The position numbers and the translations under genes are program-made. A DNA stretch of 39,772 nt, taken from positions 1-39,772 of the forward strand of contig JAJFFJ010000023.1 of assembly GCA_021776685.1 (NCBI GenBank), given 5' to 3'. Shown piece after piece: positions 21,557 through 37,824 of this stretch (position 1 is the stretch's first letter; every line of letters starts with the position of its first letter). Origin of the DNA: Alphaproteobacteria bacterium (GTDB lineage Bacteria; Pseudomonadota; Alphaproteobacteria; Bin65). The notes beneath the pieces are model-generated. The model did no database searches, had not been told where the DNA came from, and saw only the letters and a list, made by a program, of their open reading frames with translations.

Positions 21557-22411
21557 TCAGCTCCCGGCCTGATTTGACGCCTGCTTCGACGCCTCAAAGG
21601 CGGCATTCAAGCTTTCCTGCATGCGCCCGGCCCCCATCAGCAAACAGCCACCGTCAACCGGCAGGCTGATACCGGTAATGTAGGCTGCGGCCGGCGAAGA
21701 CAGGAAGATACAGGCATCCGCTATTTCCTGCTTGGTGCCGTAGCGTTGGATCGGCAGGCCCATGCCCGCATCTTTTTTGCGCACCTCGTCGGTGGAAAGA
21801 CGGCGCATGCCCTCCGTATCCGCAATGGGACCGGGCACGATGGTATTGACCCGAACGTTCAATGGACCCCATTCGACCGCCAGGCATTGGGCCAGCATCT
21901 CGACCCCCGCTTTTGCAGCGCAGACGTGGGACTGCAGGCCATAGGGGATTAAGCCCTGGGGCGCCGAAATTGCGATGCAGGAGGCGCCTGACGGGCTGTC
22001 CGTATTCAGGTGCTCATGTCCGGCACGGAAGACGTTGAAGGTGCCCTGCAAATCAATGTCCATCACGGTCTTGAAGGCGTTGGCAGACATCCCCAGCGCC
22101 GGCACCACAAAATTTCCCGCAGCGCCGGAAATCAGCACATCGATAGGCCCAAGTGACTGCACAGCCGTCTTGAGCGCATAGGCGACCTGCTCATAGTCAC
22201 GCACGTCTGCTGTGGCGCCGATGGCGTCCACACCTTCGCTTTTGAATCCGGCGATGGCGGCTTCCACATTTTCCGCCTTGCGGCTGCAGGTGGAGATATT
22301 CGCGCCCATGCGGGCAAAGCCATGGCCGATGCCCTGGTTGATGCCGGTGGTGCCACCGGCGATGAACACATGCTTGCCCCGGAAATAGTCCGGATCGAAA
22401 AGATGGGGCAT
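21557..22411 (-). CDS. 2,4-dienoyl-CoA reductase-type short-chain dehydrogenase
   Basis: A 284-residue SDR. The NAD(P)-binding segment is GGTTGINQGIG (19-29), with a GAAGN strand-4 motif at 96-100. The catalytic YxxxK tyrosine is absent: position 163 before K167 is Val in SHVCAAKAG. This, together with LAVEWGP.N.RVN and PGPI..TEGM.RL, is the pattern of peroxisomal-type 2,4-dienoyl-CoA reductases, which lack that Tyr. It is therefore likely to be an NADPH-dependent reductase in unsaturated fatty-acid beta-oxidation. AGGAGG six bases before the ATG at 22411 sets the start, discarding 26 residues of upstream frame. Confidence 0.87.
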   Translation of the reverse strand: MPHLFDPDYFRGKHVFIAGGTTGINQGIGHGFARMGANISTCSRKAENVEAAIAGFKSEGVDAIGATADVRDYEQVAYALKTAVQSLGPIDVLISGAAGNFVVPALGMSANAFKTVMDIDLQGTFNVFRAGHEHLNTDSPSGASCIAISAPQGLIPYGLQSHVCAAKAGVEMLAQCLAVEWGPLNVRVNTIVPGPIADTEGMRRLSTDEVRKKDAGMGLPIQRYGTKQEIADACIFLSSPAAAYITGISLPVDGGCLLMGAGRMQESLNAAFEASKQASNQAGS

Positions 22412-22520
22412 GGCTGCCTCCTGCATTGGCGTGATGAATATGGTGGCGGCTGTGCTAACAGATTGCCCGTCACCCACCAATTGGCCCATCGGTCACCCCT
22501 GCCCCCATTTGCCAGTGAAC

Positions 22521-23472: not shown

Positions 23473-23492
23473 CGACGTTGAGGGAGCACATC

Positions 23493-24242
23493 ATGCCGGA
23501 CGCCAGCGGTTCCGCCATCGCCGAACAGATCGTCGCCATTCGCGAAAAATGGCACACCAAGAAACACCCCTTCTTCACGTCCATGCTCGATGGCTCGCTA
23601 CCGATCAAGGCGCTCGGCATCTACATGGCCCAACACCAGAAATTCGTGAACAAGGCCGTGCCCGGCTTCGGCCTGATGGTCTACAGCTCACCGCCCGACG
23701 TGCGGAAGGCCATGGTGGAGAACCTGGCGGAAGAGGAAGGCCTGCTGGCAATCCCCAAGGAAGGCCATGTGGCCCACGACCACTGGGCAATGATCTCCGG
23801 ATTCTGCCTCGCCTCCGGCATGACCCAGGACGAGATCGAGAATACCGAGCCGACGCCCGGCTGGTGGGGACGGACGCTGCACTATGTGAATACCATGCGC
23901 GAGGAGCCGGTGGGCGTGGCGCTGGCCATGCAGGCGACCCAGGAAGGCCAGCAGGTGGCCCTCAACACCGAAATCACCATCCCGTCCTTCGCCAAACACT
24001 ATGGCTACACCGCCGAGGATGACGAGATCTCCTTCTTCGTGGAGCATGCCGAGGCGGACGCGGAGCACAGCCGCCGCCAGCTAGACCTCGCCGTCAAATA
24101 TCTCGACACCCCGGAGTTGCAGGCCCGCGCCCTGAAGGTTTGCGACGAAGCCGTGCGCCTCCGCTGGGCGTCCACCAACGACATCTACGAGATGCATGTG
24201 CTGGGTAATCAGCCGATGATGCCGGAGGGAGTTGCGGCCTAG
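23493..24242 (+). CDS. Heme-oxygenase-fold probable diiron oxidase (TenA/PqqC-like)
   Basis: A 249-residue all-helical protein of the TENA/PQQC or heme-oxygenase-like diiron oxidase (HDO) superfamily. Likely metal ligands are visible: the acidic cluster E80-E82 (AEEEG), His in EGHVAHDHW (92-97), E151 (ATQEG), and the late signature H185-x3-D189-x2-H192 (EHAEADAEH). The H..D..H set is typical of HDOs rather than thiaminase TenA. HDOs carry out varied O2-dependent reactions such as N-oxygenation, desaturation and C-C cleavage. AGGGAG at 23481-23486 fixes the ATG at 23493. It is flanked by two Rieske genes on the same strand, which suggests a shared oxidative role. Confidence 0.85.
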   Translation: MPDASGSAIAEQIVAIREKWHTKKHPFFTSMLDGSLPIKALGIYMAQHQKFVNKAVPGFGLMVYSSPPDVRKAMVENLAEEEGLLAIPKEGHVAHDHWAMISGFCLASGMTQDEIENTEPTPGWWGRTLHYVNTMREEPVGVALAMQATQEGQQVALNTEITIPSFAKHYGYTAEDDEISFFVEHAEADAEHSRRQLDLAVKYLDTPELQARALKVCDEAVRLRWASTNDIYEMHVLGNQPMMPEGVAA

Positions 24243-24398: not shown

Positions 24399-25526
24399 AT
24401 GAGCCCCGATGCTGACGCCGCGCCTGTCCTGCAAGGGATTGAGCCCTCACAATATCCGCGCCTGACCGTTCCACGCAGGGCCGGGCCTGATCCCCGCTTC
24501 CTGCGCAACAGCTGGTATGTGGTGATGTTTTCGTCGGAGCTCGAAGCCGGCCAGTTGATGCATCGCACCATCCTGAACGAGCCCATCGTATTTTACCGGA
24601 AGGAAAAGGGGGGCATTGCCGCCTACACGGATCGCTGTCCCCATCGCTCTGTCCCGCTGTCGATGGGTAAGCTTTGCCCGGGGGATCGGGTGCAATGCAT
24701 CTATCATGGGTTGGAATTCGGCCCCGACGGGCAATGCGTAAATAATCCGCACGGAACCGGTAACATTATCGACGCCTTGCACCTCAGAAGTTTCCCGGTC
24801 GTCGAAAAACATACGCTGATCTGGATCTGGATGGGCGATAAGCCGGCCGACCCCGACAATATTCCGGACTATAGCTGTCTCGATGACCGGCCCGAGCTGC
24901 ACGTGACCCGGCCCGGCTATCTCAACGTCAAGGCACACTACACGCTCGTCGTCGATAACCTGCTCGACCTGAGCCACATCAACTACACCCATGCCGGAAT
25001 TCTCGGCAACGCCGATGCGGTCAAGGCCGAGGTCGATATCACCCAGGAAGGCGATGTCGTCACGGCCAGCCGCAACAGCACGGATACCGAGACCCCCGGG
25101 ATTCTGAAGATGATGGCCCCGGATTTGCCGCGGGGGAGCTTGTGGAACTCGATCTCCTGGTATGCACCGAGCAATCTGCTTCTGCAGTTCGGCATGAGTG
25201 CGGATGGCGAGTCCAAAGAGAGCGGCACTGGCTACTACGCGATCCATTTCCTGACGCCCGAGACCGAGCGGACGACCCACTATCACTACACGGCCTCCCG
25301 CTACAACGTCCTCACGGACGATGAGGCGAACAGGGAGATGCGGGACCTGATCTACAAGATGCGGACCTTCGCCTTCGCCGATCAGGATGTGCCAATAATC
25401 GAGGCCCAGCAAATCGCCCTGGACCAGGCGAGTGAAGAAGTCGAGCAGGCCCTTCTGAATGTGGATGCCGGGCCCAACCGCTATCTCAGAGTTCTCGACA
25501 AACTGTTGCGCGAGGAAGGGAGCTAG
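24399..25526 (+). CDS. Rieske non-heme iron oxygenase, terminal oxygenase subunit
   Basis: A 375-residue oxygenase alpha subunit of the vanillate O-demethylase/Group I type. Rieske ligands: C80/H82 (CPHR) and C100/H103 (CIYHGLEF). Mononuclear iron site: D187/D190, H193 and H198 in DNLLDLSHINYTHAG. Such enzymes hydroxylate or demethylate aromatic or steroidal substrates with electrons from a separate reductase. No reductase gene is adjacent. GAGGAA lies six bases before the ATG. A weak stem-loop (24266-24279) lies between this gene and the HDO gene; a strong terminator follows. Confidence 0.93.
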   Translation: MSPDADAAPVLQGIEPSQYPRLTVPRRAGPDPRFLRNSWYVVMFSSELEAGQLMHRTILNEPIVFYRKEKGGIAAYTDRCPHRSVPLSMGKLCPGDRVQCIYHGLEFGPDGQCVNNPHGTGNIIDALHLRSFPVVEKHTLIWIWMGDKPADPDNIPDYSCLDDRPELHVTRPGYLNVKAHYTLVVDNLLDLSHINYTHAGILGNADAVKAEVDITQEGDVVTASRNSTDTETPGILKMMAPDLPRGSLWNSISWYAPSNLLLQFGMSADGESKESGTGYYAIHFLTPETERTTHYHYTASRYNVLTDDEANREMRDLIYKMRTFAFADQDVPIIEAQQIALDQASEEVEQALLNVDAGPNRYLRVLDKLLREEGS

Positions 25527-26248: not shown

Positions 26249-26717
26249 TTTAACATCCGAACGGTTTAGTCGAGGCTCCTTATCTAGGCTCCTCTCAGAA
26301 AACCGACTGTAGATAGAATGGAATCCAAAGGCAACGAATCGGCCTTTTCCGCGTGCCTGCCTCGGAAATACGAGATGGCCGGGATATCGGCCAACACCTT
26401 TCCCGGTTTGTAAACTCAGCAGCGGAAACCGAACCATTTGTCGGTAGCAAATGATTTGGGCGAGGACCGGTATGCGATTCATTAGACTTCGTAGCCGTCC
26501 GCTCTGGGACACAAGCGGACATCACGGCATCAAAATTTCGAGTCAGTTAAAGGTTCACCAGCTGACCTTTTTCGCGCGCTTCGCTCTAAATAAAAATACC
26601 CCGTGGCCGCTTTGCGCAACGGGCGACCACAGGGCTTTGAATATGACAGCGGTGGGACAGCGTTAGGCCCCGACACGGGGCTCAGAGGTCCATCGGTCCC
26701 GATGGCGTTCTGCCGGC
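26249..26717. other. Intergenic region without a supported gene
   Basis: About 470 bp between the AT-rich secreted-protein gene and the nitrile hydratase-like alpha gene. It holds the minus-strand terminator at 26587-26633 and two short hairpins without T-runs (26667-26681 and 26690-26705). Open frames here lack ribosome sites and recognisable protein features. Confidence 0.6.
26587..26633 (-). terminator. Intrinsic terminator of the carboxylase/nitrile hydratase-like gene train
   Basis: Read on the minus strand: a 12-bp stem (26622-26633 with 26598-26609, two G-U pairs), a 12-base loop, then TATTTTTATTT. It lies about 85 bp past the stop of the alpha-like gene and should end the long transcript. 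Confidence 0.88.
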
Positions 26718-27413
26718 CTAGTTCGGCAGTTCCACCTCGGCGACACCGATCATGGAGTCGCGGCCGATGACGCCCGCGAGTTGTTCCTCGCTCCAGCCAT
26801 CGGTGCCGGCGGGGCGCTTTGGAAGCACCATGTAGCGCATGTCGGCGGTGGAATCGTGGACGCGGACTTCGCGGTCATCGCCGATCTCGGTGCCGAACTC
26901 GTGCAGGACCTGCCGCGGGTGGCGGACGACGCGGGAGCGGTATTCCCGGCTCTTGTACCAGTCCGGCGGCCGGCCCAGAACGAAGACTGGATAGCAGGAG
27001 CAGAGCGTGCAGACGACCACGTTGTGGACGTCTTCGGTATTCTCGACCACCACCAGGTCCGCGACCACCACATCGATGTCCATTTCGTCTTTCAGCGTCT
27101 TCTTGCCGTTGGTCAGCAGTCGCTCCTTGAAGGACGGGTCGGTCCAAGCCTTGGCGACAATACTGGCGCCGATGGCCGGTGTGCGGCTGTCGATCCGTTC
27201 GATCATCTCACGCACGTCGGAGCCGTCGAAATAGCCCTTTTCGATCAGCAGCTCGCGGGCGGCATCGGCCAGATTGTGATAGTGGCCCGTCGGCTCGTCC
27301 GCCTGGATCGGCGTATGGTCGTGATCGTGGTCATGCCCGTGACCGTGGCTATGGCCGGTATCGTCATCATGCCCATCATCGGGCCCATCATCGTGATCGT
27401 GGCTATGGGGCAT
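26718..27413 (-). CDS. Nitrile hydratase alpha / thiocyanate hydrolase gamma-like subunit, cobalt type
   Basis: A 231-residue catalytic subunit. The metal claw VCTLCSC (C135, C138, S139, C140) is the cobalt-type form, in which two cysteines are normally oxidised. The flanks ENTEDVHN, LGRPPDWYKS and RYMVLPKRPAGTDGWSEEQL are strongly nitrile-hydratase-like. The first 34 residues hold 11 His alternating with Asp/Gly, a probable metal-loading tail like that known in thiocyanate hydrolase gamma. Unusually, the two residues after CYP are Val-Phe (143-144), where nitrile hydratases usually have Trp-Pro. It hydrates nitriles to amides or hydrolyses thiocyanate. The start overlaps the beta C-domain gene stop (TGATG). 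Confidence 0.92.
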   Translation of the reverse strand: MPHSHDHDDGPDDGHDDDTGHSHGHGHDHDHDHTPIQADEPTGHYHNLADAARELLIEKGYFDGSDVREMIERIDSRTPAIGASIVAKAWTDPSFKERLLTNGKKTLKDEMDIDVVVADLVVVENTEDVHNVVVCTLCSCYPVFVLGRPPDWYKSREYRSRVVRHPRQVLHEFGTEIGDDREVRVHDSTADMRYMVLPKRPAGTDGWSEEQLAGVIGRDSMIGVAEVELPN

Positions 27414-27712
27414 CAGTTGCCTCCTTCTGCTGGCTCCAGCCAGTGTTCGAATATCTCCACATCTACCTTGTCCGCAGCCGGCCCGTCATAGTCGGGCCAC
27501 ACATGAGCCTGATCGAACCGCACCCGGTAGAGCGGAAAGGCGTTGGCGTCATAGTCGCCGAAGGCCAGTTGCTCCGGATTTTTATATTCACCGCAGATGC
27601 GCTCAACAGCGCCGGTCTTGCCGCGGATATAGTAAGGCGTGCGGATATGGCGGGGCCCCGTGGGATATCGGGCCGCGACGGTGACCTTATCACCAGGGGC
27701 GAAGCGGGCCAT
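27413..27712 (-). CDS. Nitrile hydratase beta C-terminal domain as a separate subunit (ScnA-like)
   Basis: A 99-residue protein matching only the C-terminal SH3-like barrel of nitrile hydratase beta. It shows FAPGDKV, PRHIRTPYYIRGKTG (the arginines near the alpha-subunit claw), the PEQLAFGD loop, LYRVRFD and the closing DKVDVEIFEHWLEPA. In thiocyanate hydrolase this domain is likewise a separate polypeptide (alpha subunit), whereas ordinary nitrile hydratases have it fused to the N-domain. The ATG at 27712 overlaps the upstream stop by one base, and its own stop overlaps the alpha gene start, so the three are tightly coupled. Confidence 0.9.
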   Translation of the reverse strand: MARFAPGDKVTVAARYPTGPRHIRTPYYIRGKTGAVERICGEYKNPEQLAFGDYDANAFPLYRVRFDQAHVWPDYDGPAADKVDVEIFEHWLEPAEGGN

Positions 27713-28080
27713 CACGCGCCTCCTCCAGAGTTTTCGACACCTTTTTCGACCACCGGCTCGCCCGCGGCCTTGCGCGCAGCCACATCCGCCATGCGCGCGT
27801 CCAGCTCTTCCCGGCTCAGCACGTCCTTCTCCACCAGAATCTCCGTCAGCCCGGCAATCCATTTCTCATAGTAGGAAACGCCGTCATAGACCTCCGGCGG
27901 CAACTCCTCGATGCCGCGGCGCAGCTCGTCGATGGTAATGATCGGCGGTTGGCGCAGGGACAAAAGCCGCACCAGTGCCTCGATGCGTTTCTCCCAAGGT
28001 TCGAACTCGTGGGTGGAGGGCTGGACCGTCTCCGCGTCAAGCCCGCCCATGTCGTGATGTTGGCGTGTATCATCGGTCAT
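27712..28080 (-). CDS. Nitrile hydratase beta N-terminal domain-like protein, copy 2
   Basis: A 122-residue protein matching the N-terminal half of nitrile hydratase beta or thiocyanate hydrolase beta: HHDMGG (9-13), FEPWEKRIEAL, the helix DELRRGIEELPPEVY, YYEKWIAGLTEILVEK and SREELDARM. After that comes a short Ala/Gly/Glu-rich tail like the linker that normally joins the two beta domains, and the next gene supplies the second domain. It is probably the structural beta N-subunit. It is clearly related to the gene upstream (28222-28539). A role as metallochaperone, as in nitrile hydratase activators, is an alternative. Confidence 0.88.
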   Translation of the reverse strand: MTDDTRQHHDMGGLDAETVQPSTHEFEPWEKRIEALVRLLSLRQPPIITIDELRRGIEELPPEVYDGVSYYEKWIAGLTEILVEKDVLSREELDARMADVAARKAAGEPVVEKGVENSGGGA

Positions 28081-28110
28081 GGGGCGGAGTATGCCAAATT
28101 TCAGACCCGT

Positions 28111-28140
28111 TCGTCATCCCCGTGAATACAGGGGTCCAAA
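28111..28140. repeat. REP-like palindromic element
   Basis: A short imperfect palindrome, TCGTCATCCCC followed after nine bases by GGGGTCC, matching the widespread proteobacterial type of intergenic repeat (CGTCATCCCCGCG...CGGGGATCC) from memory. It sits in the only sizeable gap, about 140 bp, inside this gene train, between the two beta N-domain copies. No other copy was seen in the window. Confidence 0.6.
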
Positions 28141-28221
28141 AAACGCCGCGGAACCGGATTCTCGCCTTGGCAGGAAGGACCGATTGATTTGGCCGCACCA
28201 TCAATCAATGCGACCGACCGT

Positions 28222-28539
28222 TCAGCCTTTCGCTCTGACCCGCGCTTCCAGCTCATCCCGATCAAGAATGCCTTGTTCGATCAGATGGTTGGTCACGGCC
28301 AGCGCCCAGCGGCCGTAATAGCCGGCGCTGTCGTATACGTCCGGCGGCAGGGATTCGATATGGCGGCGCAACTCGTCAACGCGCATGGTCCGGGTCTTGT
28401 AGCCGGTGAGCAGATAGACCACCGCCTCTAGCTCTTTTTCCCAGTCAGCCTCTTCATGGCCGGTACGATCGATAGGCCCCGCGGGTTCGCTGCCAACCTG
28501 GCCACCCATGTCGTGATGCTGGCGCGGGTCCTCCGCCAC
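28222..28539 (-). CDS. Nitrile hydratase beta N-terminal domain-like protein, copy 1
   Basis: A 105-residue protein from a GTG at 28539, four bases past the stop of the crotonase gene. It repeats the layout of the next gene: PRQHHDMGG near the N-terminus, DWEKELEAVVYLL, VDELRRHIESLPPDVY, YYGRWALAVTNHLIEQG and DRDELEARV. It ends directly after this helix, without the linker-like tail of copy 2. Two adjacent genes of this kind suggest duplication. One may be a structural subunit and the other a cobalt-insertion chaperone, since nitrile hydratase activators share this fold; however, both copies keep the HDMGG segment I associate with true subunits. Confidence 0.85.
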   Translation of the reverse strand: MAEDPRQHHDMGGQVGSEPAGPIDRTGHEEADWEKELEAVVYLLTGYKTRTMRVDELRRHIESLPPDVYDSAGYYGRWALAVTNHLIEQGILDRDELEARVRAKG

Positions 28540-28543
28540 GGGG

Positions 28544-29350
28544 CTACCGGCCCTTGAAATCAGCGTCGCGGCGTTCGGTGAAGCTGGCGACACCTTCCTG
28601 AAAATCCTCGCTGCGCATCAGGCGGGGTGCGATCTGGTCGAACTGCAATACGGCGGCCTGCTGGCCGGCATAGGTGTAGGTGCGGGCATTCTCCATGGTC
28701 GCCTGCACGGCCAGCGGCGCCTGTTTCACGATGCTTTCCGCCAGTTCCATGGCCCGGGCCTCGGCCTGTCCCTTGGGCGTGATCTCCTGGATGAAATGCA
28801 TGCGCTTGGCCTCGTCCGGCCCGAATTCGTCGCCCGTGAGCAGCCAGCGCATGGCGTCGCCCCAGCCGGCGCGGCTGACAAAGCGAATGGTGGCGCCGCC
28901 GAGGGCCATGATGCCCCGCTTGACCTCAAGCTGGCTGAAGCGGGTGCCCTCCTCCGCCACGACGATGTCACACGCGAGCATGAGCTCAATGCCCAGGGTG
29001 AAACAGATACCCTTCACGGCCGCGATCACCGGCTTGGTGCGGAGCGGCGGACGCAGGCCCATGGGATCGATGGTGCCGGCCGGCATCATATGGCCGTCCA
29101 CGGACTCGAATTCCGACAGATGAAGTCCAGCGGTGAAATTATCGCCATTGGCCTGGACCACGCAGCACCACGCATCTCGGTCTTCTTCATAGGTCGTATA
29201 GGCTTCCGCCAGCTCGTGCATCATGGCCGGGGTGAAGCCGTTATATTTCGTCGGCCGGTCGATGGTGATGACGAAGATGCGGTCCCGCCGCTCCCACAGG
29301 ATCTGGCCGGCCTCCGGGCCATCCTCGGTCTTGTGTTTCACATGGGGCAT
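28544..29350 (-). CDS. Enoyl-CoA hydratase (crotonase family)
   Basis: A 268-residue crotonase. Both hydratase glutamates are present: E122 in LGIELMLACD and E142 in SQLEVKRG, so water addition to an enoyl-CoA is likely. The oxyanion segment is NFTAGLHL (71-78). AGAGGA lies seven bases before the ATG at 29350. It follows the carboxyltransferase gene by 47 bp and precedes the nitrile hydratase-like genes by four bases. In known isoprenoid and leucine routes a crotonase hydrates the carboxylated acyl-CoA (AtuE or LiuC role); by position this gene fits that step. Confidence 0.92.
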   Translation of the reverse strand: MPHVKHKTEDGPEAGQILWERRDRIFVITIDRPTKYNGFTPAMMHELAEAYTTYEEDRDAWCCVVQANGDNFTAGLHLSEFESVDGHMMPAGTIDPMGLRPPLRTKPVIAAVKGICFTLGIELMLACDIVVAEEGTRFSQLEVKRGIMALGGATIRFVSRAGWGDAMRWLLTGDEFGPDEAKRMHFIQEITPKGQAEARAMELAESIVKQAPLAVQATMENARTYTYAGQQAAVLQFDQIAPRLMRSEDFQEGVASFTERRDADFKGR

Positions 29351-29397
29351 AGGGTCGTCCTCTGTTACGGGAAAGCCCCGAGGGAGTTACAGGCGCG

Positions 29398-31008
29398 TTA
29401 CAGGCGCAGAATGCCGTTCCTCGGCTCGGCCATGGGCGCATTCAGGCTGGCGGAGATCGCCAGACCCAGCGCATTGCGGGTATCGGCAGGATCGATCATG
29501 CCGTCATCCCACACTTCCGACGTCGCATAGTACGGACTCGAGTCAGCCTCATAGCGCTGAAAGATCGGATCGCGGATCTCGGCGATTTCCTCGTCGCTCG
29601 GGTTCTCTCCGGCGCGTTTCATTTGCGCTACCCGCAGGTCGGTCAGGACGCCCGCCGCCTGCTCCGCGCCCATCAGGCAGACCCGCGCGGTCGGCCAGGT
29701 GAACAGAAAGCGCGGATCGAAGGCACGGCCGCACATGCCGTAGTTGCCCGCGCCATAGGAGCCGCCGACGATCACCGTGAATTTCGGCACCCGCACATTG
29801 GACTGCATCATGATCATCTTGGCGCCGTCCTTGGCGATTCCCCGCGCCTCGTATTCGCTGCCGACCATGAACCCGGTGATATTCTGCAGGAAGATCAGCG
29901 GTGTCTTCGACTTGTTGCAATGGTCGATGAAATGGGCCGCCTTGAGCGAGCTGTCGTTGAACAGCACGCCGTTGTTGCCGAGGATGCCGACCTTGTAGCC
30001 CCACAGGCGCGCAAAACCGCAGACCAGGGTGGTGCCGTAATTGGGCTGGAATTCGTGGAACCGGCTGCCGTCCACCAGGCGGGCGATGATTTCACGCACG
30101 TCATACTGGATGCGGTCTGACGGCGGAATCACGCCATAGAGCTCTTCCGTGTCGTAATAGGGCTCTTCGGGCTCTGCCCAGTCGATCTCTTCCTTCTCGG
30201 CGGGCGCAAAATTGGTCGCGACGATCTCCCGGGCAAGCGCGATGGCCTCTTCCTCGGTTTCCGCCGGATAATCGGCCGTGCCGGAAACGCGGGTGTGAAC
30301 ATCAACCCCGCCGAGATCTTCCGCAGAAACTTCCTCGCCCGTTGCCGCCTTCACCAGGGGCGGACCGCCCAGGAAGATGCCGCCGGTGCCACGTTTGATG
30401 ATGGCGTAGTCGCTGAGCGCCGGCACATAGGCGCCGCCTGCCGTACAGTGGCCCAACACCACGGAAATCTGCGGAACCCCCAACTGGGACAGGGTGCACT
30501 GGCTGTTGAAATAGCGGCCGCCATGGCGGGCATCGGGAAAAAGGCCGGCCCAGAGCGGCAGAAACCCGCCGGCACTGTCGCAGAGATGGATCACCGGCAG
30601 GCGATTTTCGATCGCGATATCGAGGCCGCGGTTCATCTTCTTGACGGTCAGCGGATACCAGGCGCCGCCTTTGATGCTGGCATCGTCCGCGTGGATATAC
30701 ACCTCGCGGCCCGATACCAGACCGATGCCGGAGATCGTGCAGGCAGACGGCACCTCACCGTCATATTCCTGATTGGCAGCCAGGGCGGAGAGCTCCAGGA
30801 AGGGTGAACCCGGGTCCAGCAACAGCTCGAGCCGGTCGCGGACATAGAGTTTGCTCTGGCGGGCCAACCGGTCCATGTCCCGCTGCGGACGCACATGACG
30901 GGCGGCATGCAACTTCTCTTTCAGTTCACCCACAAGGTTCAACTGATAGGCGCGATTACTGGCGTAAGTATCTGAATTTACGTCTATCTGACTATCAATT
31001 CGCCGCAT
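29398..31008 (-). CDS. Acyl-CoA carboxylase beta subunit (carboxyltransferase), methylcrotonyl/geranyl-CoA type
   Basis: A 536-residue biotin-dependent carboxyltransferase with tandem crotonase-like domains. Typical segments are GHCTAGGAYVPALSD (oxyanion, N-domain), FLGGPPLVKAATGE, and in the C-domain FLQNITGFMVG, GGSYGAGNYGMCGRAFDPRF and WPTARVCLMGAEQAAGVL. This is the MCC/GCC type, acting on 3-methyl-branched enoyl-CoAs. The segment HGGR (162-165) has Gly163 where MCCs usually have Phe, which may mean a larger, geranyl-CoA-like substrate. GGAGG is seven bases before the ATG at 31008, which shares one base with the upstream stop (TAATG). Confidence 0.93.
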   Translation of the reverse strand: MRRIDSQIDVNSDTYASNRAYQLNLVGELKEKLHAARHVRPQRDMDRLARQSKLYVRDRLELLLDPGSPFLELSALAANQEYDGEVPSACTISGIGLVSGREVYIHADDASIKGGAWYPLTVKKMNRGLDIAIENRLPVIHLCDSAGGFLPLWAGLFPDARHGGRYFNSQCTLSQLGVPQISVVLGHCTAGGAYVPALSDYAIIKRGTGGIFLGGPPLVKAATGEEVSAEDLGGVDVHTRVSGTADYPAETEEEAIALAREIVATNFAPAEKEEIDWAEPEEPYYDTEELYGVIPPSDRIQYDVREIIARLVDGSRFHEFQPNYGTTLVCGFARLWGYKVGILGNNGVLFNDSSLKAAHFIDHCNKSKTPLIFLQNITGFMVGSEYEARGIAKDGAKMIMMQSNVRVPKFTVIVGGSYGAGNYGMCGRAFDPRFLFTWPTARVCLMGAEQAAGVLTDLRVAQMKRAGENPSDEEIAEIRDPIFQRYEADSSPYYATSEVWDDGMIDPADTRNALGLAISASLNAPMAEPRNGILRL

Positions 31009-31508
31009 TAGGCCGCCTCCGGTTCCAGACTTACCAGGGCATCGCCACGATCGAACGTGGCGCCCTCGGCGATATGAATTTCCGCCACCGCGCCCGCGCG
31101 CCATGCTTTGACCGTGGTCTCCAGCTTCATGCTCTCGATCACCACCAGCACATCGCCTTCGCGCACTGATTGGCCGTCGGAAACCTTGATGCTCAGCATG
31201 GTCCCCGGCATCGGTGCCGTCATGCTGTCGCCGCTGACGCCACCGGTGCCGCGCGCGGCGGACATCAGCGGATCGTCGATCTCGACCGTCCAGACCTCAC
31301 CGGCGTGATGCACATGGATGCGGTTGCCGTCGCGGACCGCCTTGCCCGGCCCCACCTGCCCATCCACATCCGCCAGGAATCCATGGCCGGTGGTCATATA
31401 GGAGGTCACCGGCATCCTGCGTCCGTCGATCATCACCTCCTGCGGGTAGGTCCGCTTAGTGAAGGCGAGCTCGTGAATATTGCCGTCCAGGGAAAGTTTC
31501 CAGGCCAT
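31008..31508 (-). CDS. Biotin carboxyl carrier protein of acyl-CoA carboxylase (BT-BCCP part of alpha)
   Basis: A 166-residue protein equal to the C-terminal part of an MCC/GCC alpha subunit. Residues 1-85 look like the BT domain that docks to the carboxyltransferase (MAWKLSLDGN..., VHHAGEVWTVEIDDP), and residues 95-165 are the biotinyl domain with biotinylated K128 in ESMKLE, a variant of the usual EAMKM. The preceding gene supplies the biotin carboxylase. In most MCC/GCC systems these are one polypeptide of about 650-670 residues; here they are separated by 10 bp. The ATG at 31508 fits the domain boundary. Confidence 0.92.
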   Translation of the reverse strand: MAWKLSLDGNIHELAFTKRTYPQEVMIDGRRMPVTSYMTTGHGFLADVDGQVGPGKAVRDGNRIHVHHAGEVWTVEIDDPLMSAARGTGGVSGDSMTAPMPGTMLSIKVSDGQSVREGDVLVVIESMKLETTVKAWRAGAVAEIHIAEGATFDRGDALVSLEPEAA

Positions 31509-31518
31509 CGTGTTCTCG

Positions 31519-32988
31519 TCAGTTCCGCCAGGGGCCGATACGGCCCCAGGGGCCGGGCGCGGCCAAACCATGGCGACCTTCCAGGGTCACCGCCGCTGCC
31601 GCCAGCACCACATTGCGTCCATGTTCCGACAGGGGCGCACGGGTCAGGTCGTCCGCGTGCCGGTCCAGAAAGGCCGTGTCCAGTTCAGCCTCGCGAAAGG
31701 CCGGGTGGCGCATCAAGCGGCCCAGCCAGCCTGTATTCGTGGTCACGCCCAGCAAAACGGTTTCATTCAGAGCGCCTTCCAAATTCAGGACAGCTTCAAA
31801 CCGCGTGTCACCACTGGCGATGATCTTGGCCAGCATGGGGTCAAAGGATGCCGTTACCGCCTGGCCTTCTGCGAAGCCGGTATCGACCCGGCACCGCCAG
31901 GCCGCCGGCAGAGTCATGTGCAACAACCGCCCTGTGGCCGGCATGAAGTTGTTGTCCGGGTTTTCCGCGTAGATCCGCGCCTCGATCGCATGCCCGTTCA
32001 GGGGCACCGCCTCCTGGGCCAGTGGAATGGGCTCGCCCGCCGCAATGCGCAACTGCCACTCAACCAGATCCAGGCCAGTGACTTCCTCCGTCACCGGATG
32101 CTCGACCTGAAGGCGGGTGTTCATCTCCAGAAAGTAGAAGTCGCCATCCGGCGCCATGACGAATTCGACCGTACCCGCATTGGCATAGTTCGCGGCTTTG
32201 GTCAGACTGACGGCCGTGGCGCAGATGGCTTCGCGCTGCGCATCGGTAATCGTCGGGGACGGCGCCTCCTCGATCACCTTCTGGAAGCGGCGCTGGATCG
32301 AACATTCCCGCTCCCACAGGTGGATCGCACCACCGGCGCCATCGCCAAACACCTGCACCTCGATATGCCGTGGCCGGTCGATCCAGCGCTCGGCATAGAC
32401 CACGCCGCTGCCAAAGGCGCGTGTCGCCTCGCTCTTGGCGGTCTCGATCGCCGCGTCAAGTTCGCCGGCCTCGCGGACAATGCGCATGCCCCGGCCACCG
32501 CCACCCGCAGCCGCCTTGATTACCAGCGGAAAGCCGATTTCCGCCGCGCGCGCCGCGAAGTCCTCGCCCTCATCCACCGATGGCGAAAGCGGCACGCCAT
32601 GCTCTGCCGCAAACCGGCGGGCCGCCACCTTGTCCCCCATCAATGCGATCACGTCCGCAGAAGGGCCAATGAAGGTGAGCCCGGCGTCCGCAACCGCGCG
32701 GGCGAAATCAGCATTCTCGGACAGGAAGCCGTAGCCCGGGTGAATTGCGCCAGCGCCAAGAGCCTTTGCGGCCTCAATTATCTGCGCGCCATCCAGATAA
32801 GCGCCCACCGGCGTCTCGCCCGTAATCTCCACGCTTTCGTCCGCCTGACGAACCGCTGGGCTGGCGGCATCCAGATGGTGGAAGACAACCGCGCTGCCAA
32901 TCCCAAAGGTGCGAAGGGTGCGAATGATGCGGCAGGCAATTTCACCCCGGTTGGCGATCAACACTTTTTCGAACAAGGGAGCGCTCAT
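31519..32988 (-). CDS. Biotin carboxylase subunit of acyl-CoA carboxylase
   Basis: A 489-residue ATP-grasp enzyme that carboxylates biotin using bicarbonate and ATP. Typical segments: LIANRGEIACRI, HPGYGFLSEN, MGDKVAARR, the glycine-rich KAAAGGGGRGM loop, RHIEVQVFGD, ERECSIQRR, EMNTRLQVEHPVTE and EARIYAE. The last 40 residues (ending PWGRIGPWRN) correspond to the region just before the BT domain in fused MCC/GCC alpha subunits, so the gene break lies between domains. Its ATG overlaps the stop of the AtuA-like gene (ATGA), showing translational coupling. Confidence 0.94.
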   Translation of the reverse strand: MSAPLFEKVLIANRGEIACRIIRTLRTFGIGSAVVFHHLDAASPAVRQADESVEITGETPVGAYLDGAQIIEAAKALGAGAIHPGYGFLSENADFARAVADAGLTFIGPSADVIALMGDKVAARRFAAEHGVPLSPSVDEGEDFAARAAEIGFPLVIKAAAGGGGRGMRIVREAGELDAAIETAKSEATRAFGSGVVYAERWIDRPRHIEVQVFGDGAGGAIHLWERECSIQRRFQKVIEEAPSPTITDAQREAICATAVSLTKAANYANAGTVEFVMAPDGDFYFLEMNTRLQVEHPVTEEVTGLDLVEWQLRIAAGEPIPLAQEAVPLNGHAIEARIYAENPDNNFMPATGRLLHMTLPAAWRCRVDTGFAEGQAVTASFDPMLAKIIASGDTRFEAVLNLEGALNETVLLGVTTNTGWLGRLMRHPAFREAELDTAFLDRHADDLTRAPLSEHGRNVVLAAAAVTLEGRHGLAAPGPWGRIGPWRN

Positions 32989-34874
32989 GCTGCGGCCTTC
33001 CAGTCATCAAGCCAGCCGCCGGGCGCCAGCCAGTCCGCCGGCACATATACCGGCATGTCCAGCAGCATCTGGGCATAGGCCTTGCCCTGGGGGTCGTAGC
33101 GCAGCGAGGCAATGCCGCCACCGCCCAAGGCATTCAGCAGCAGGAAGTTGAAGGCATTCATGCTCGGCAATTCATAGCGTTGCACCTGCGATGCGTCCGG
33201 TGTTTCGAGGACGTGGCTGAACCAGCCTGCCACCGACGCTGTCGTGAGCGTTGCGCGCAGCAGCGGCAGAAACTCCCGCCGGCGCGCGATAATTCCGATG
33301 TTCGCGTGATTGCCTTTGTCGCCGCTGCGTCCGTGGGCCAGCGCCACGAGCGGCACCATCTTGGTGTTGGGCGAGGGCATCGCCTCCCATCCCGGTACGA
33401 CCAGATCATCTGCGGCAGCTGCCGTCCGCTCTGTGGAATCTACGCTCTCGGTTTCAGGTGCAGGCGCCGGCACATGAACATCAACGGCATGGCGCACCCC
33501 GGCAACGTCCACCGTCACCGGCACATTCTGTTTCGGCGCCAGGCAGGAGAACAGGCGAACCACCGGCGTCGGACGGGGCCGCCCGGCATAGAAACCCGTT
33601 ATTCCCGGCGCGAAGGAGGTTGCCGACGGTGCAATCTCCCGGGAGAAAAGCTCAACCGCATCCCGACTGTCGTGGTGTACCGCGAGCTTGAGCACCACAT
33701 CGCGCGACGCAACCCGGGCATGGTTGCCGTAGGTGCCTTCCGCGCCGATCACTTCAATGCTGGTGTCGCGGAAATCTCCCAGGTTGGTTTGCGCCAGCAT
33801 CTTCCGGACCCTGCCCAGAACGGCGTCGCCAACACGTTGGGCTTTCCGTCCCGCATCGATGCCGCCGATCATCAGCGTGGTCATCGCGCGAAAGCCATCC
33901 GGATAGGTCGCACTGACTTTGTAGCTGCCTGTCGGCGGCTTGCCGCGTGCACCGCTGACCGACACCCGGTTGACCCCCGCCTGTTCAAGGCTCAGCTGGG
34001 TCCAGTCACAGGTTACGTCTGGCAGCAAATAATTTGCGGGATCGCCGATCTCGTAAAGCACCTGCTCGCCAACGGTGGCGGGTGTCACGAGGCCACCGGT
34101 GCCATCCGGCTTGGTAACAGTGAAATGCCCGTCCGAGGTGCATTCGACTATCGGGTAGCCGATATTTTCCCAGTCCGGCACGCTCTCCCAGTCGGTGAAG
34201 AGGCCGCCGGTTGCCTGGGCGCCGCATTCCACGATGTGCCCGGCCAGGCTTCCGGCGGAAAGCCGGTCATAGTCATCGTCCTGCCAGCCGAACACGTGAA
34301 GCAGCGGTCCGAGCGTCACGGCGCTGTCGACACCGCGGCCGGTGATCACAATGTCCGCGCCGGCGTCCAGTGCGTCGGCAATCGCCCGCGCGCCAAGATA
34401 GGCGTTCATGCTCATCAGCCGCGCCGGCATGGGATCGCCGGAAAACATCTCCGTGACGCCCGCATTGCGGTAGTCATCGGCCTGGCTCAGCAGATCGTCG
34501 CCTTCGACCACGGCAATCGAGAAATCGACACCTGCCTCCGCCGCCACCGTCTCCAGCGCTGCCCGGCAAGCTGCCGGATTGACGCCGCCGGCATTACTGA
34601 CAACCCGAATGCCACGATCCTTGATCTCCCGGGCCAGGCGGCGCATCGGGCCATTGACGAAATCCGGTGCATAGCCGAGGTCGGGATTCTTTTCCCGGGC
34701 ACGGGCCAACAGGGACATGGTGATCTCGGCCAGATAGTCGAAGACCAGAAAATCGATCTGGCCGCTCAGCACCAATTGCGGCGCCGATATCTCGCTGTCG
34801 CCCCAAAACCCGGAGGCACAGCCGATGCGCACCACTTTGCCGCCCTGTTCCTGACCTGCCATATCCTTCCCCAT
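32985..34874 (-). CDS. AtuA-like DUF1446 protein (acyclic terpene utilisation)
   Basis: A 629-residue protein of the DUF1446/AtuA family found beside geranyl-CoA and related carboxylases. The N-terminal domain shows IGCASGFWGDS, FDYLAE, FVNGPMRRL, VSNAGGVNP and TGRGVDSA; the C-terminal AtuA-like domain shows GRSGDKGNHANIGI and FLLLNALGGGG. The biochemical role of AtuA is not established; genetic work in Pseudomonas links it to acyclic terpene and isoprenoid acid catabolism. It is the first gene of the minus-strand train and diverges from an SDR gene across about 127 bp. An ATG at 34862 is an alternative start. Confidence 0.9.
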   Translation of the reverse strand: MGKDMAGQEQGGKVVRIGCASGFWGDSEISAPQLVLSGQIDFLVFDYLAEITMSLLARAREKNPDLGYAPDFVNGPMRRLAREIKDRGIRVVSNAGGVNPAACRAALETVAAEAGVDFSIAVVEGDDLLSQADDYRNAGVTEMFSGDPMPARLMSMNAYLGARAIADALDAGADIVITGRGVDSAVTLGPLLHVFGWQDDDYDRLSAGSLAGHIVECGAQATGGLFTDWESVPDWENIGYPIVECTSDGHFTVTKPDGTGGLVTPATVGEQVLYEIGDPANYLLPDVTCDWTQLSLEQAGVNRVSVSGARGKPPTGSYKVSATYPDGFRAMTTLMIGGIDAGRKAQRVGDAVLGRVRKMLAQTNLGDFRDTSIEVIGAEGTYGNHARVASRDVVLKLAVHHDSRDAVELFSREIAPSATSFAPGITGFYAGRPRPTPVVRLFSCLAPKQNVPVTVDVAGVRHAVDVHVPAPAPETESVDSTERTAAAADDLVVPGWEAMPSPNTKMVPLVALAHGRSGDKGNHANIGIIARRREFLPLLRATLTTASVAGWFSHVLETPDASQVQRYELPSMNAFNFLLLNALGGGGIASLRYDPQGKAYAQMLLDMPVYVPADWLAPGGWLDDWKAAA

Positions 34875-35001: not shown

Positions 35002-35721
35002 ATGGGAAGAACAGTGGGAACCGCGATCTTGGACTTTTCCGGACGCAGCGTCGTCGTTACCGGCGCATTTGGCATTTTGGGCACTGGCGTTGTCTGCCGC
35101 CTTCAGCAGGCTGGCGCGAAGGTCATTGCCGTCGATGCACATATAACGCCGCAGGACCGCTGGGCCGCCGCCGGCCTTGAGCGGGTAGACGTGCGGGGCG
35201 GCGTTGATCTGCGCGAGGAAGGGCCGGTTGAGGAGCTTTATCAGTCCATTGCCGCGCCGTGGGCGTCGATCCACATCGCCGGCGGGTTCCTGTATGCGCC
35301 GCTTGCTGACACCAGCCAGGCCGATTTTCAGAACATGATGCAGATGAACGCGCGGACTTGTTTTCTCTGTTGCCGCGCCGCCGCTGCACGCATGGCCGAC
35401 GGCGGCCGCATCGTCAACATCGCCGCCCGGCCTGGCGTGGAACCGCGCACGGGCGCGAACATGAGCGCCTATGCGGCAAGCAAGGCGGCTGTTGCGGCCC
35501 TGAGCGAAGCATTGGGTGAGGAACTGGCCGGCCGCGGCATCCTGGTGAACGCTGTGGCGCCGTCGATCCTCGACACGCCCCAGAACCGCGCCGACATGCC
35601 CGACGCAGACCCCGCCGACTGGCCAAAGGCCGAGGACGTTGCCGAAACTATCGCCTTCCTCGCCAGTCCAGATAACACCGTGACCCGCAGTGCGGTCGTG
35701 CCGGTATACGGACGGGCATGA
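35002..35721 (+). CDS. Short-chain dehydrogenase/reductase family protein
   Basis: A 239-residue SDR. The cofactor loop is VVTGAFGILGTG (classic TGxxxGIG relaxed to TGAFGILG), with D at the end of strand 2 (VIAVDAH) favouring NAD(H). The catalytic YAASK is present, but the usual serine of the NISS segment is replaced by Ala (NIAARPG), so activity may be altered. It is divergent from the AtuA-like operon, and its product may act on the same substrates. The stop overlaps the start of the next gene (ATGATGG). A GTG at 35014 is an alternative start; no clear ribosome site was seen. Confidence 0.86.
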   Translation: MGRTVGTAILDFSGRSVVVTGAFGILGTGVVCRLQQAGAKVIAVDAHITPQDRWAAAGLERVDVRGGVDLREEGPVEELYQSIAAPWASIHIAGGFLYAPLADTSQADFQNMMQMNARTCFLCCRAAAARMADGGRIVNIAARPGVEPRTGANMSAYAASKAAVAALSEALGEELAGRGILVNAVAPSILDTPQNRADMPDADPADWPKAEDVAETIAFLASPDNTVTRSAVVPVYGRA

Positions 35722-36242: not shown

Positions 36243-36267
36243 CCCCAATCATGAATCATCGCACGCT

Positions 36268-37824
36268 ATGACAGAAATCGGCCCGACCCTTCCCGACCAT
36301 GCCGAGCGCACGCCGGATAAGCCTGCCCTGATCATAGCCGGCAGTGGCGAGGTGACCAGCTTTGCCCAGCTGGAGGAGCGGTCGAACCAGTATGCCCACC
36401 TGTTCCGGTCATTGGGGCTTCAGGCCGGCGACCATATCGCGCTCTACCTGGAGAACACGCCGCGATATCACGAAATCTGCTGGGGAGCGAAACGCAGCGG
36501 TCTCTATTTCACCTGCATCTCCAGCTACCTGACCGCACCAGAGGTCGCGTTCATCGCCCAGGACTGCGAGGCGAAGCTCTTTATCAGCTCCACCTACAAG
36601 CAGGACGTGGCCACTGAGGTGGAGGCTCAGTGCCCCGGCATACCCCACTGGATGATGATCGACGGCACAATCGACGGGTTCGAGTCCCTGGAGGACGCCG
36701 GCGCGGCCCAACCCACAAGCCGTATTGCCGACGAACTGGAAGGGCAGGACATGCTCTACTTCTCCGGCACAACAGGACGGCCCAAGGCGATCAAGCAATT
36801 CCTGCAGGGCAACCCTTTCGGCACCATCGATCCGTCGATCCACGCCATCGGCCAGCTATTCGACATCGACCAGAACACCGTCTACCTCTCCCCCGCGCCG
36901 CTCTATCACGCGGCCCCCCTGCGCTTTAACCTCCGGATTCAGCTGGCGGGCGGCACCAGCGTGGTCATGGAGCGGTTTGATCCGGCGATCTCACTGGAAC
37001 TGCTCGACCGTCACAACATTACCCACAGCCAGTGGGTCCCAACCATGTTCGTGCGCATGTTGAAGCTGCCGGAGGCGGAGCGTCAGCGGCATGATTTTTC
37101 CAGCCATCGTATTGCCATCCATGCCGCCGCCCCCTGCCCTGTCCCGGTAAAGCGGCAGATGATCGACTGGTGGGGGCCGATCATCCGCGAATATTACGGC
37201 GGCAGCGAATCCAATGGCTTCTGCTCCATCAACACCGAGGAATGGCTGGCCCACCCCGGCAGCGTCGGCCGGCCGCTCTTCGGCGTGCCCCGGATCGTCG
37301 ATGACGCCGATGTCGAGCTGCCCGTGGGCGAGGAAGGCTCGATCTATTTCTCAGACGGCCATCCCTTCGAATATCACAATGACCCGGAACGCACCGCCGC
37401 CGCCCATAATGACCGCGGCTGGAGCACGCTCGGCGACGTGGGCTTTCTGGACAAGGACGGGTATCTTTATCTCACCGACCGCAAGGCCTTCCTGATCATC
37501 TCCGGCGGGGTCAACATTTACCCGCAGGAGATCGAGAATGTGCTGATCACCCATCCGAAGGTGGCCGACGTGGCCGTCTTCGGTGTGCCGAACGAGGAAT
37601 TCGGGGAAGAGGTGAAGGCCGTGGTCCAACCGATGGACATGGCGAAAGCAGGTGACGATCTGGCCGACGAGCTTCTGACCTTTGTGCGCAAAGATCTCAG
37701 CGGTCTCGAGGTCCCGCGCAGCATCGACTTCGACGCCGAACTCCCCCGCCACCCCACCGGCAAGCTCTACAAACGCCTGCTGAAAGACCGGTATTGGGGC
37801 AAGGAAGATAGTCGGATTGTGTGA
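36268..37824 (+). CDS. AMP-forming acyl-CoA synthetase
   Basis: A 518-residue ANL-superfamily ligase. The phosphate loop is FSGTTGRPKAIK, A5 is YYGGSESNG, A7 is GWSTLGDVG, A8 is RKAFLIISGGVNIYPQEIE, and the C-terminal catalytic lysine is K499 in HPTGK. The Glu of A5 and Asp of A7 are intact. It would supply acyl-CoA substrate, perhaps to the divergently encoded carboxylase pathway. The ATG at 36268 starts where family homology begins; an open extension back to 36109 overlaps the previous gene and is rejected. Confidence 0.93.
   Translation: MTEIGPTLPDHAERTPDKPALIIAGSGEVTSFAQLEERSNQYAHLFRSLGLQAGDHIALYLENTPRYHEICWGAKRSGLYFTCISSYLTAPEVAFIAQDCEAKLFISSTYKQDVATEVEAQCPGIPHWMMIDGTIDGFESLEDAGAAQPTSRIADELEGQDMLYFSGTTGRPKAIKQFLQGNPFGTIDPSIHAIGQLFDIDQNTVYLSPAPLYHAAPLRFNLRIQLAGGTSVVMERFDPAISLELLDRHNITHSQWVPTMFVRMLKLPEAERQRHDFSSHRIAIHAAAPCPVPVKRQMIDWWGPIIREYYGGSESNGFCSINTEEWLAHPGSVGRPLFGVPRIVDDADVELPVGEEGSIYFSDGHPFEYHNDPERTAAAHNDRGWSTLGDVGFLDKDGYLYLTDRKAFLIISGGVNIYPQEIENVLITHPKVADVAVFGVPNEEFGEEVKAVVQPMDMAKAGDDLADELLTFVRKDLSGLEVPRSIDFDAELPRHPTGKLYKRLLKDRYWGKEDSRIV

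Follow-up and report, generated by a model that had tools for sequence, protein, structure and literature searches.

A split nitrile hydratase-type enzyme adjoining acyl-CoA enzyme genes across an alphaproteobacterial family, with a possible role in branched acyl-CoA catabolism

Nitrile hydratases (NHases) matter greatly to industry as catalysts, but what they act on in nature is mostly unclear. Here we analysed a stretch of 39,772 nucleotides from an Alphaproteobacteria bacterium (assembly GCA_021776685.1, contig JAJFFJ010000023.1; hereafter the window), in which the genes of a split NHase-type enzyme follow those of an acyl-CoA carboxylase. From position 34874 down to 26718, nine consecutive genes on the minus strand encode an AtuA-family protein, biotin carboxylase (BC), biotin carboxyl carrier protein (BCCP), carboxyltransferase (CT), a crotonase, two NHase beta N-domain proteins (betaN1 and betaN2), a beta C-domain protein (betaC) and the alpha subunit. 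The link between the NHase and a gene for an acyl-CoA enzyme is family-wide, occurring in all 11 genomes of the family compared, and the nine-gene unit is specific to the genome of the window among the genomes compared. We tentatively read this unit as an operon for the catabolism of a beta-methyl-branched, isoprenoid-type acid, combined with hydration of a nitrile that the substrate carries or releases, an interpretation that we consider possible rather than probable.

The genetic link, first proposed from the window alone, holds up in the relatives. The NHase alpha subunit is present in 29 of the 61 genomes searched, including the genome of the window and all ten same-family genomes, whose alphas are 67-71% identical to the window alpha. 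Crotonase, betaN, betaC and alpha lie together on one strand in nine of these ten (two other genera), and the only crotonase match at E<=1e-30 in the genome of the window and in each of the nine is the NHase-linked gene. In the tenth relative (G001, 75% complete), where a crotonase match was not found, an orthologous CT, 71% identical to the window CT, directly precedes betaN. The other flanking genes of the window were mostly not found near the NHase unit in the relatives; since the crotonase-betaN-betaC-alpha arrangement is nevertheless kept in nine of them, the linkage is more than chance. A divergent open reading frame (ORF) of a single cluster flanks the NHase unit in eight of the ten, and both members scanned are FadJ-like (enoyl-CoA hydratase plus 3-hydroxyacyl-CoA dehydrogenase). 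A PhyH-like cluster (one member scanned) lies near the unit in four.

The original prediction counted two betaN copies. Both are present, but they are not equivalent: betaN2, 61-66% identical to the betaN of the relatives, is its ortholog, whereas betaN1 has diverged (43-50%), and two consecutive betaN genes before betaC occur in none of the ten relatives. Further NHase genes were seen in some of these genomes. In G003 (L101:8683-10324) a second betaN and alpha directly follow the first NHase set, and that alpha also carries the YPVF motif described below. Second split NHases in G009 (L117), G007 (L118) and G008 (L119, where the match crosses one stop codon) lie near ABC-transport genes, whose domains were scanned in L117 alone, with no crotonase match. 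A recurring cluster, d12, beside the second NHases looks like an antisense ORF-calling artefact and was set aside.

The other half of the unit also occurs by itself. AtuA, BC, BCCP and CT stand in a row without an NHase in four of the five plasmid regions opened (from 20 records listed of 161). Because this block occurs without NHase and the crotonase-NHase part is kept separately in the relatives, the nine genes are two joined modules, AtuA-BC-BCCP-CT and crotonase-betaN-betaC-alpha.

The gene set, its order and its single strand stand as predicted, with all nine products exceeding their Pfam cut-offs. In the NHase part, alpha scores 259 bits against PF02979 (cut-off 27.2), betaC 74 against PF02211, and the two betaN proteins 75 and 64 against PF21006. 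In the acyl-CoA part, the scores are 146 bits for ECH_1, 439 for Carboxyl_trans, 61 for Biotin_lipoyl and 237/136/111 for the biotin carboxylase domains; the N-terminal part of BCCP gives a weak BT-domain match under the cut-off. The AtuA gene product matches AtuA with 479 bits and AtuA_ferredoxin with 105. Gene ends overlap or lie at most 47 nt apart, with the sole exception of 141 nt between betaN1 and betaN2, when the likely starts are used (GTG 28539 for betaN1, ATG 27715 for betaC and ATG 31014 for CT; the spacing check took the longer betaC ORF). The strong terminator expected behind alpha was also found: a 13-bp stem of -24.8 kcal/mol (z -3.2) followed by UAUUUUUAUUU, a hairpin missed by a simple terminator scan limited to loops <=8. 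Together, these features suggest that the nine genes are co-transcribed (Table 1).

Table 1. Features of the nine-gene unit and of the genes divergent from it (window positions)
Feature	Position	Strand	Basis
AtuA-family protein (PF07287 + PF23544)	32985..34874	-	Pfam
Biotin carboxylase subunit, separate gene	31519..32988	-	family models
BCCP, ESMKLET biotin-attachment motif	31008..31571	-	Pfam
Acyl-CoA carboxylase CT, MCC-like length, Gly165 at MCC Phe191 position (MCC, methylcrotonyl-CoA carboxylase)	29398..31014	-	Pfam, alignment
Crotonase, NF005126/PRK06563 type (over cut-off)	28544..29350	-	family models
betaN1, diverged duplicate of betaN type; reading frame open from GTG 28593	28222..28539	-	Pfam, alignment
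betaN2, NHase beta N-domain subunit	27712..28080	-	Pfam, alignment
betaC, subunit with the NHase beta C-domain; ORF begins at 27862 in its longest form	27413..27715	-	Pfam
NHase alpha: CTLCSC metal motif, YPVFVLGRPP pocket motif, His-rich N-terminus	26718..27413	-	Pfam, alignment
Intrinsic terminator 3' of alpha	26583..26640	-	hairpin folding
Short-chain dehydrogenase/reductase (SDR), divergent from AtuA	35002..35721	+	family models
Acyl-CoA synthetase, best model FadD4 (under its cut-off)	36250..37824	+	family models

The alpha subunit is NHase-type rather than a proven NHase, because it passes Pfam PF02979 while narrowly missing the NCBIfam NHase model TIGR01323 (243 bits, cut-off 249.85). 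After its metal motif CTLCSC it reads YPVFVLGRPP. Among the 86 alphas compared, all with 40 residues after CTLCSC, YPVF[VI]LGRPP occurs in 12, all of the same family, and YPW in 43. In a tree of 93 alphas (those of at least 130 residues, leaving out G114 and G385, two genomes of another family discussed below), the 12 family alphas form one clade (100/94; bootstrap not settled). This clade belongs to a 40-row group in which the plasmid split-beta types and a thiocyanate hydrolase (SCNase)-like clade are also found, yet it is separate from the latter, whose three rows comprise L187, annotated as such, and two labelled by a sequence motif. The CTLCSC motif and the arginines of DE[LM]RRGIE and RTPxYIRGK in the two beta domains, which we take to be catalytic, are conserved across all 11 aligned copies (betaC rows trimmed to the last 110 residues). 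Cobalt is the predicted metal, and nitrile-to-amide conversion the putative chemistry.

No stand-alone activator (TIGR03889) was found in the genome of the window. The model exceeds its cut-off in one of the 11 family genomes, namely G001, where the hit shares a contig with a second NHase, and weaker matches elsewhere fall mostly at betaN genes; the window betaN2 itself reaches 18 bits (cut-off 46). A His-rich alpha N-terminus is present in most family copies. Because no stand-alone activator was found, we propose that the metal may be loaded via this N-terminus, perhaps with betaN1, which is a candidate maturation factor. Eukaryotic NHases are likewise described as lacking known activators (PMC7193024). 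The window alpha also exceeds the cut-off for NHLP leader peptides (59.8 versus 50.9 bits). Such leaders are derived from NHase alpha.

The carboxylase module resembles that of acyclic isoprenoid catabolism, the Atu pathway, as the original prediction had argued; the AtuA score and the CT residue described here favour that role. The closest solved chains to the window CT are MCC beta (607.6 bits), a chain labelled propionyl-CoA carboxylase beta (606.2) and geranyl-CoA carboxylase (GCC) beta (456.9). Where the leucine-pathway MCC has a Phe gatekeeper (Phe191, numbered as in the human chain), the window CT has Gly165; the same position holds Gly in eight, Ala in one and Phe in three of 12 other CTs, the Phe set including the second MCC-like CT of the same genome (C130). 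The three-residue insertion of MCC before the gatekeeper is retained, with no gap relative to MCC. Because MCC-type length is thus kept in this region, the window CT is an MCC-like enzyme with an opened pocket and not a GCC proper. The replacement of Phe by Gly predicts a substrate larger than C5, and BC-BCCP-CT is best read as a predicted gamma-carboxylase for a beta-methyl-enoyl-CoA above that size. In MCC, the F191G substitution is reported to confer activity on geranyl-CoA and to leave essentially none on methylcrotonyl-CoA (PMC4673880).

On our preferred reading, the divergent acyl-CoA synthetase and SDR, both probable pathway members judging from their position, would prepare the acyl-CoA. 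BC-BCCP-CT would then act on an enoyl-CoA of greater size than methylcrotonyl-CoA, carboxylating it at the beta-methyl group, and the crotonase would carry out a hydration; of the two Glu residues that we take to be catalytic in this enzyme, the first is kept and the second is Arg. AtuA, described as the acetate-releasing lyase of the Atu pathway (PMC4847356), would release the branch as acetate, so that carboxylation, hydration and this release together remove the methyl branch. The enzyme formed by betaN2, betaC and alpha would act as a cobalt-type NHase with a family-specific pocket, turning a nitrile or similar group, whether still part of the substrate or already set free from it, into an amide, which may be passed to one of the amidase-family enzymes of the genome. 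Both the direction of the pathway and its substrate are predictions. The lack of an amidase gene in the window had been counted against a simple nitrile route. That argument was dropped, as the genome has 12 amidase-family (PF01425) places, and the window itself contains an isochorismatase-fold hydrolase (PF00857; 18624-19169, minus strand) ~7.5 kb from the NHase alpha, a fold that we take to include amidases.

Several observations weigh against a single joint pathway. The original prediction had looked to related genomes for the same neighbourhood, and there the result is divided: the crotonase-NHase part recurs in nine of ten and CT adjoins the NHase in the tenth, but the nine-gene order is found in none, and no AtuA, BC or BCCP match lies beside the NHase in any of them (10-20 kb fetched around the NHase). 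AtuA is present in eight of the ten, on a contig other than that of the NHase, and has its own carboxylase genes in the regions fetched from four of these relatives. Pfam scans of 40 window proteins revealed no acyl-CoA dehydrogenase domain such as that of AtuD; the remainder of the genome lay outside this search. The 141-nt gap (28081-28221, minus strand) contains a T-run and a weak promoter-like match at 28097-28069, and might harbour a promoter for the second half of the unit; promoter-like matches are not clearly enriched (5 found, 3.1 expected).

Evidence from outside the family points the same way. As an exact pattern, CTLCSCYPVF matches seven of 385 genomes from this class (380 outside the family, 5 inside), namely the five family genomes and two of another family, G114 and G385. 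These two have a split betaN-betaC-alpha set (51-65% identity) in which the motif continues as YPVFLLGKSP, with no crotonase, AtuA or carboxylase match around the NHase in 19.9 kb of G114 or 39.9 kb of G385. One SDR match (30%) lies near the NHase in G385, and the neighbours scanned in the two genomes include AzlC-like, sulfatase, sensor kinase, CbiX-like and Mg-chelatase-like genes. Since G114 and G385 have a YPVF alpha and no such neighbours, this kind of NHase works without these acyl-CoA genes. It follows that the YPVF pocket is independent of the acyl-CoA linkage, and we rejected the motif as proof of crotonase coupling, its YPVF part occurring in two of 380 non-family genomes without the acyl-CoA genes of the window nearby. 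Of the named NHase-alpha loci outside the family, which number at least 68, the 68 listed, some shortened by contig ends, give no match to the AtuA, BC, BCCP or CT of the window; there is a 26% crotonase match at L061 and, at L081, a crotonase 30% like another window gene. Conversely, the crotonase is found at E<=1e-55 in 38 of the 385 genomes, and an NHase part lies within ~1.5 kb of it in none of the 25 non-family loci fetched; 12 of the 42 crotonase matches had no locus, so that their neighbours were not counted. Non-family NHase neighbourhoods were only partly annotated, because ORF calling produced antisense artefacts where the GC content is high.

Much of this agrees with the leading rival explanation, in which two independent modules stand side by side and the NHase, expressed by read-through, scavenges nitriles or cyanide in general, sharing no pathway with the carboxylase. 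The absence of the nine-gene order from the relatives, the YPVF-type NHases of G114 and G385, and the plasmid AtuA-carboxylase regions without NHase all speak for it. So do the three plasmid-borne split NHases examined from other alphaproteobacteria (four records opened from 60 listed of 178), which adjoin cobalt (or nickel/cobalt) transporters and in two cases also an aquaporin. We nevertheless regard independent modules as rather unlikely, given the near-touching gene ends and an NHase that adjoins an acyl-CoA gene in the window and in all ten relatives though the other flanks differ. Alternatively, the NHase-fold enzyme may hydrate or hydrolyse something else, either an intermediate bound to CoA or a different product of the pathway, with no nitrile involved. 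The pairing with CoA enzymes and the family-restricted YPVF[VI]LGRPP motif would suit such a reaction, but the metal motif and beta arginines are conserved, YPVF is also found, as YPVFLLGKSP, where these CoA enzymes are absent, and we know of no precedent for such a reaction in the NHase fold, which makes this alternative improbable. A bolder proposal, which we consider a long shot, is that a family-specific NHase-fold metalloenzyme acts directly in acyl-CoA catabolism, where it would hydrate a CoA-bound nitrile or other triple-bonded or heterocumulene group formed or encountered while a branched isoprenoid acid is degraded, and would need the crotonase as its obligatory partner.

An SCNase-type enzyme hydrolysing thiocyanate or isothiocyanate appears very improbable. 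The split beta and three-gene form agree with such an enzyme, and the best solved relative of betaN2 is SCNase beta, although NHase beta chains follow very closely (E 2.1e-6 for the former, 2.6e-6 for the latter). However, the alpha reaches 200 bits against the SCNase gamma model TIGR03887 (cut-off 291), is nearer Co-type NHase than SCNase (E 1e-66 versus 1e-51) and falls outside the SCNase-like clade, and no sulfur-oxidation gene was noticed when the window was inspected by eye. We therefore rejected an SCNase identity, and the earlier description of alpha as thiocyanate hydrolase-like was abandoned.

Elsewhere in the window, a haem-oxygenase-like protein (23478-24242, plus strand; PF14518, CADD/PqqC-like but under the CADD cut-off) with an HxxxDxxH motif adjoins a Rieske oxygenase (24399-25526). 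In G001 the orthologous gene and that of the NHase alpha are arranged tail to tail; six further family genomes have the match on a contig other than that of the NHase, and three have none at E<=1e-20. For lack of evidence, this protein was dropped as a candidate nitrile-making enzyme, as were sponge terpenoid isonitriles as candidate substrates. An SDR of PRK07576 type (21557-22489, minus strand) has a 53% identical counterpart on Cupriavidus plasmid pBB1, where it immediately follows the CT of the AtuA-BC-BCCP-CT region, and SDRs 61-63% identical to it lie near the NHase in G001 and G005. A HigB-like toxin (PF05015; 38544-39112, minus strand) overlaps a helix-turn-helix protein, likely forming a HigBA toxin-antitoxin pair.

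An NHase tied genetically to acyl-CoA enzymes throughout a family gives a concrete lead to its natural substrate class. If our preferred reading is true, the Atu pathway would extend to nitrogen-bearing branched compounds. An NHase with an altered pocket and no recognisable activator is also a useful case for studying how these enzymes mature and which substrates they accept. Among open-licence PubMed Central papers, we found none combining 'nitrile hydratase' with AtuA or 'acyl-CoA carboxylase'. In broader searching of the same collection, no title or opening of an abstract pointed to an NHase-acyl-CoA link, and 'nitrile hydratase' and 'crotonase' co-occur in the searchable text of one genome paper.

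The unit can be compared with four known systems. Thiocyanate hydrolase (scnABC) has the same three-part architecture, but the window alpha belongs to another clade and scores under the family cut-off. Split-beta Co-type NHases share the CTLCSC alpha, the betaN and betaC domains and the beta arginines; the window differs from them in YPVFxLGRPP, in a genome without a TIGR03889 match and in the pairing with a crotonase. The plasmid AtuA-BC-BCCP-CT regions of Nitratireductor, Sagittula and Sulfitobacter, and the unannotated one of Cupriavidus (tblastn), have the same gene order and CTs 59-65% identical to that of the window, but no NHase match, and the three annotated ones contain acyl-CoA dehydrogenases. 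In the Atu pathway with geranyl-CoA carboxylase, as in the window, AtuA, an open-gatekeeper carboxylase, a crotonase, an SDR and an acyl-CoA synthetase occur in one region. Unlike that system, the window lacks an acyl-CoA dehydrogenase among the proteins scanned, its CT is nearer MCC beta than GCC beta, its BC and BCCP are separate genes, its crotonase is of the PRK06563 subfamily, and an NHase is attached to the pathway genes.

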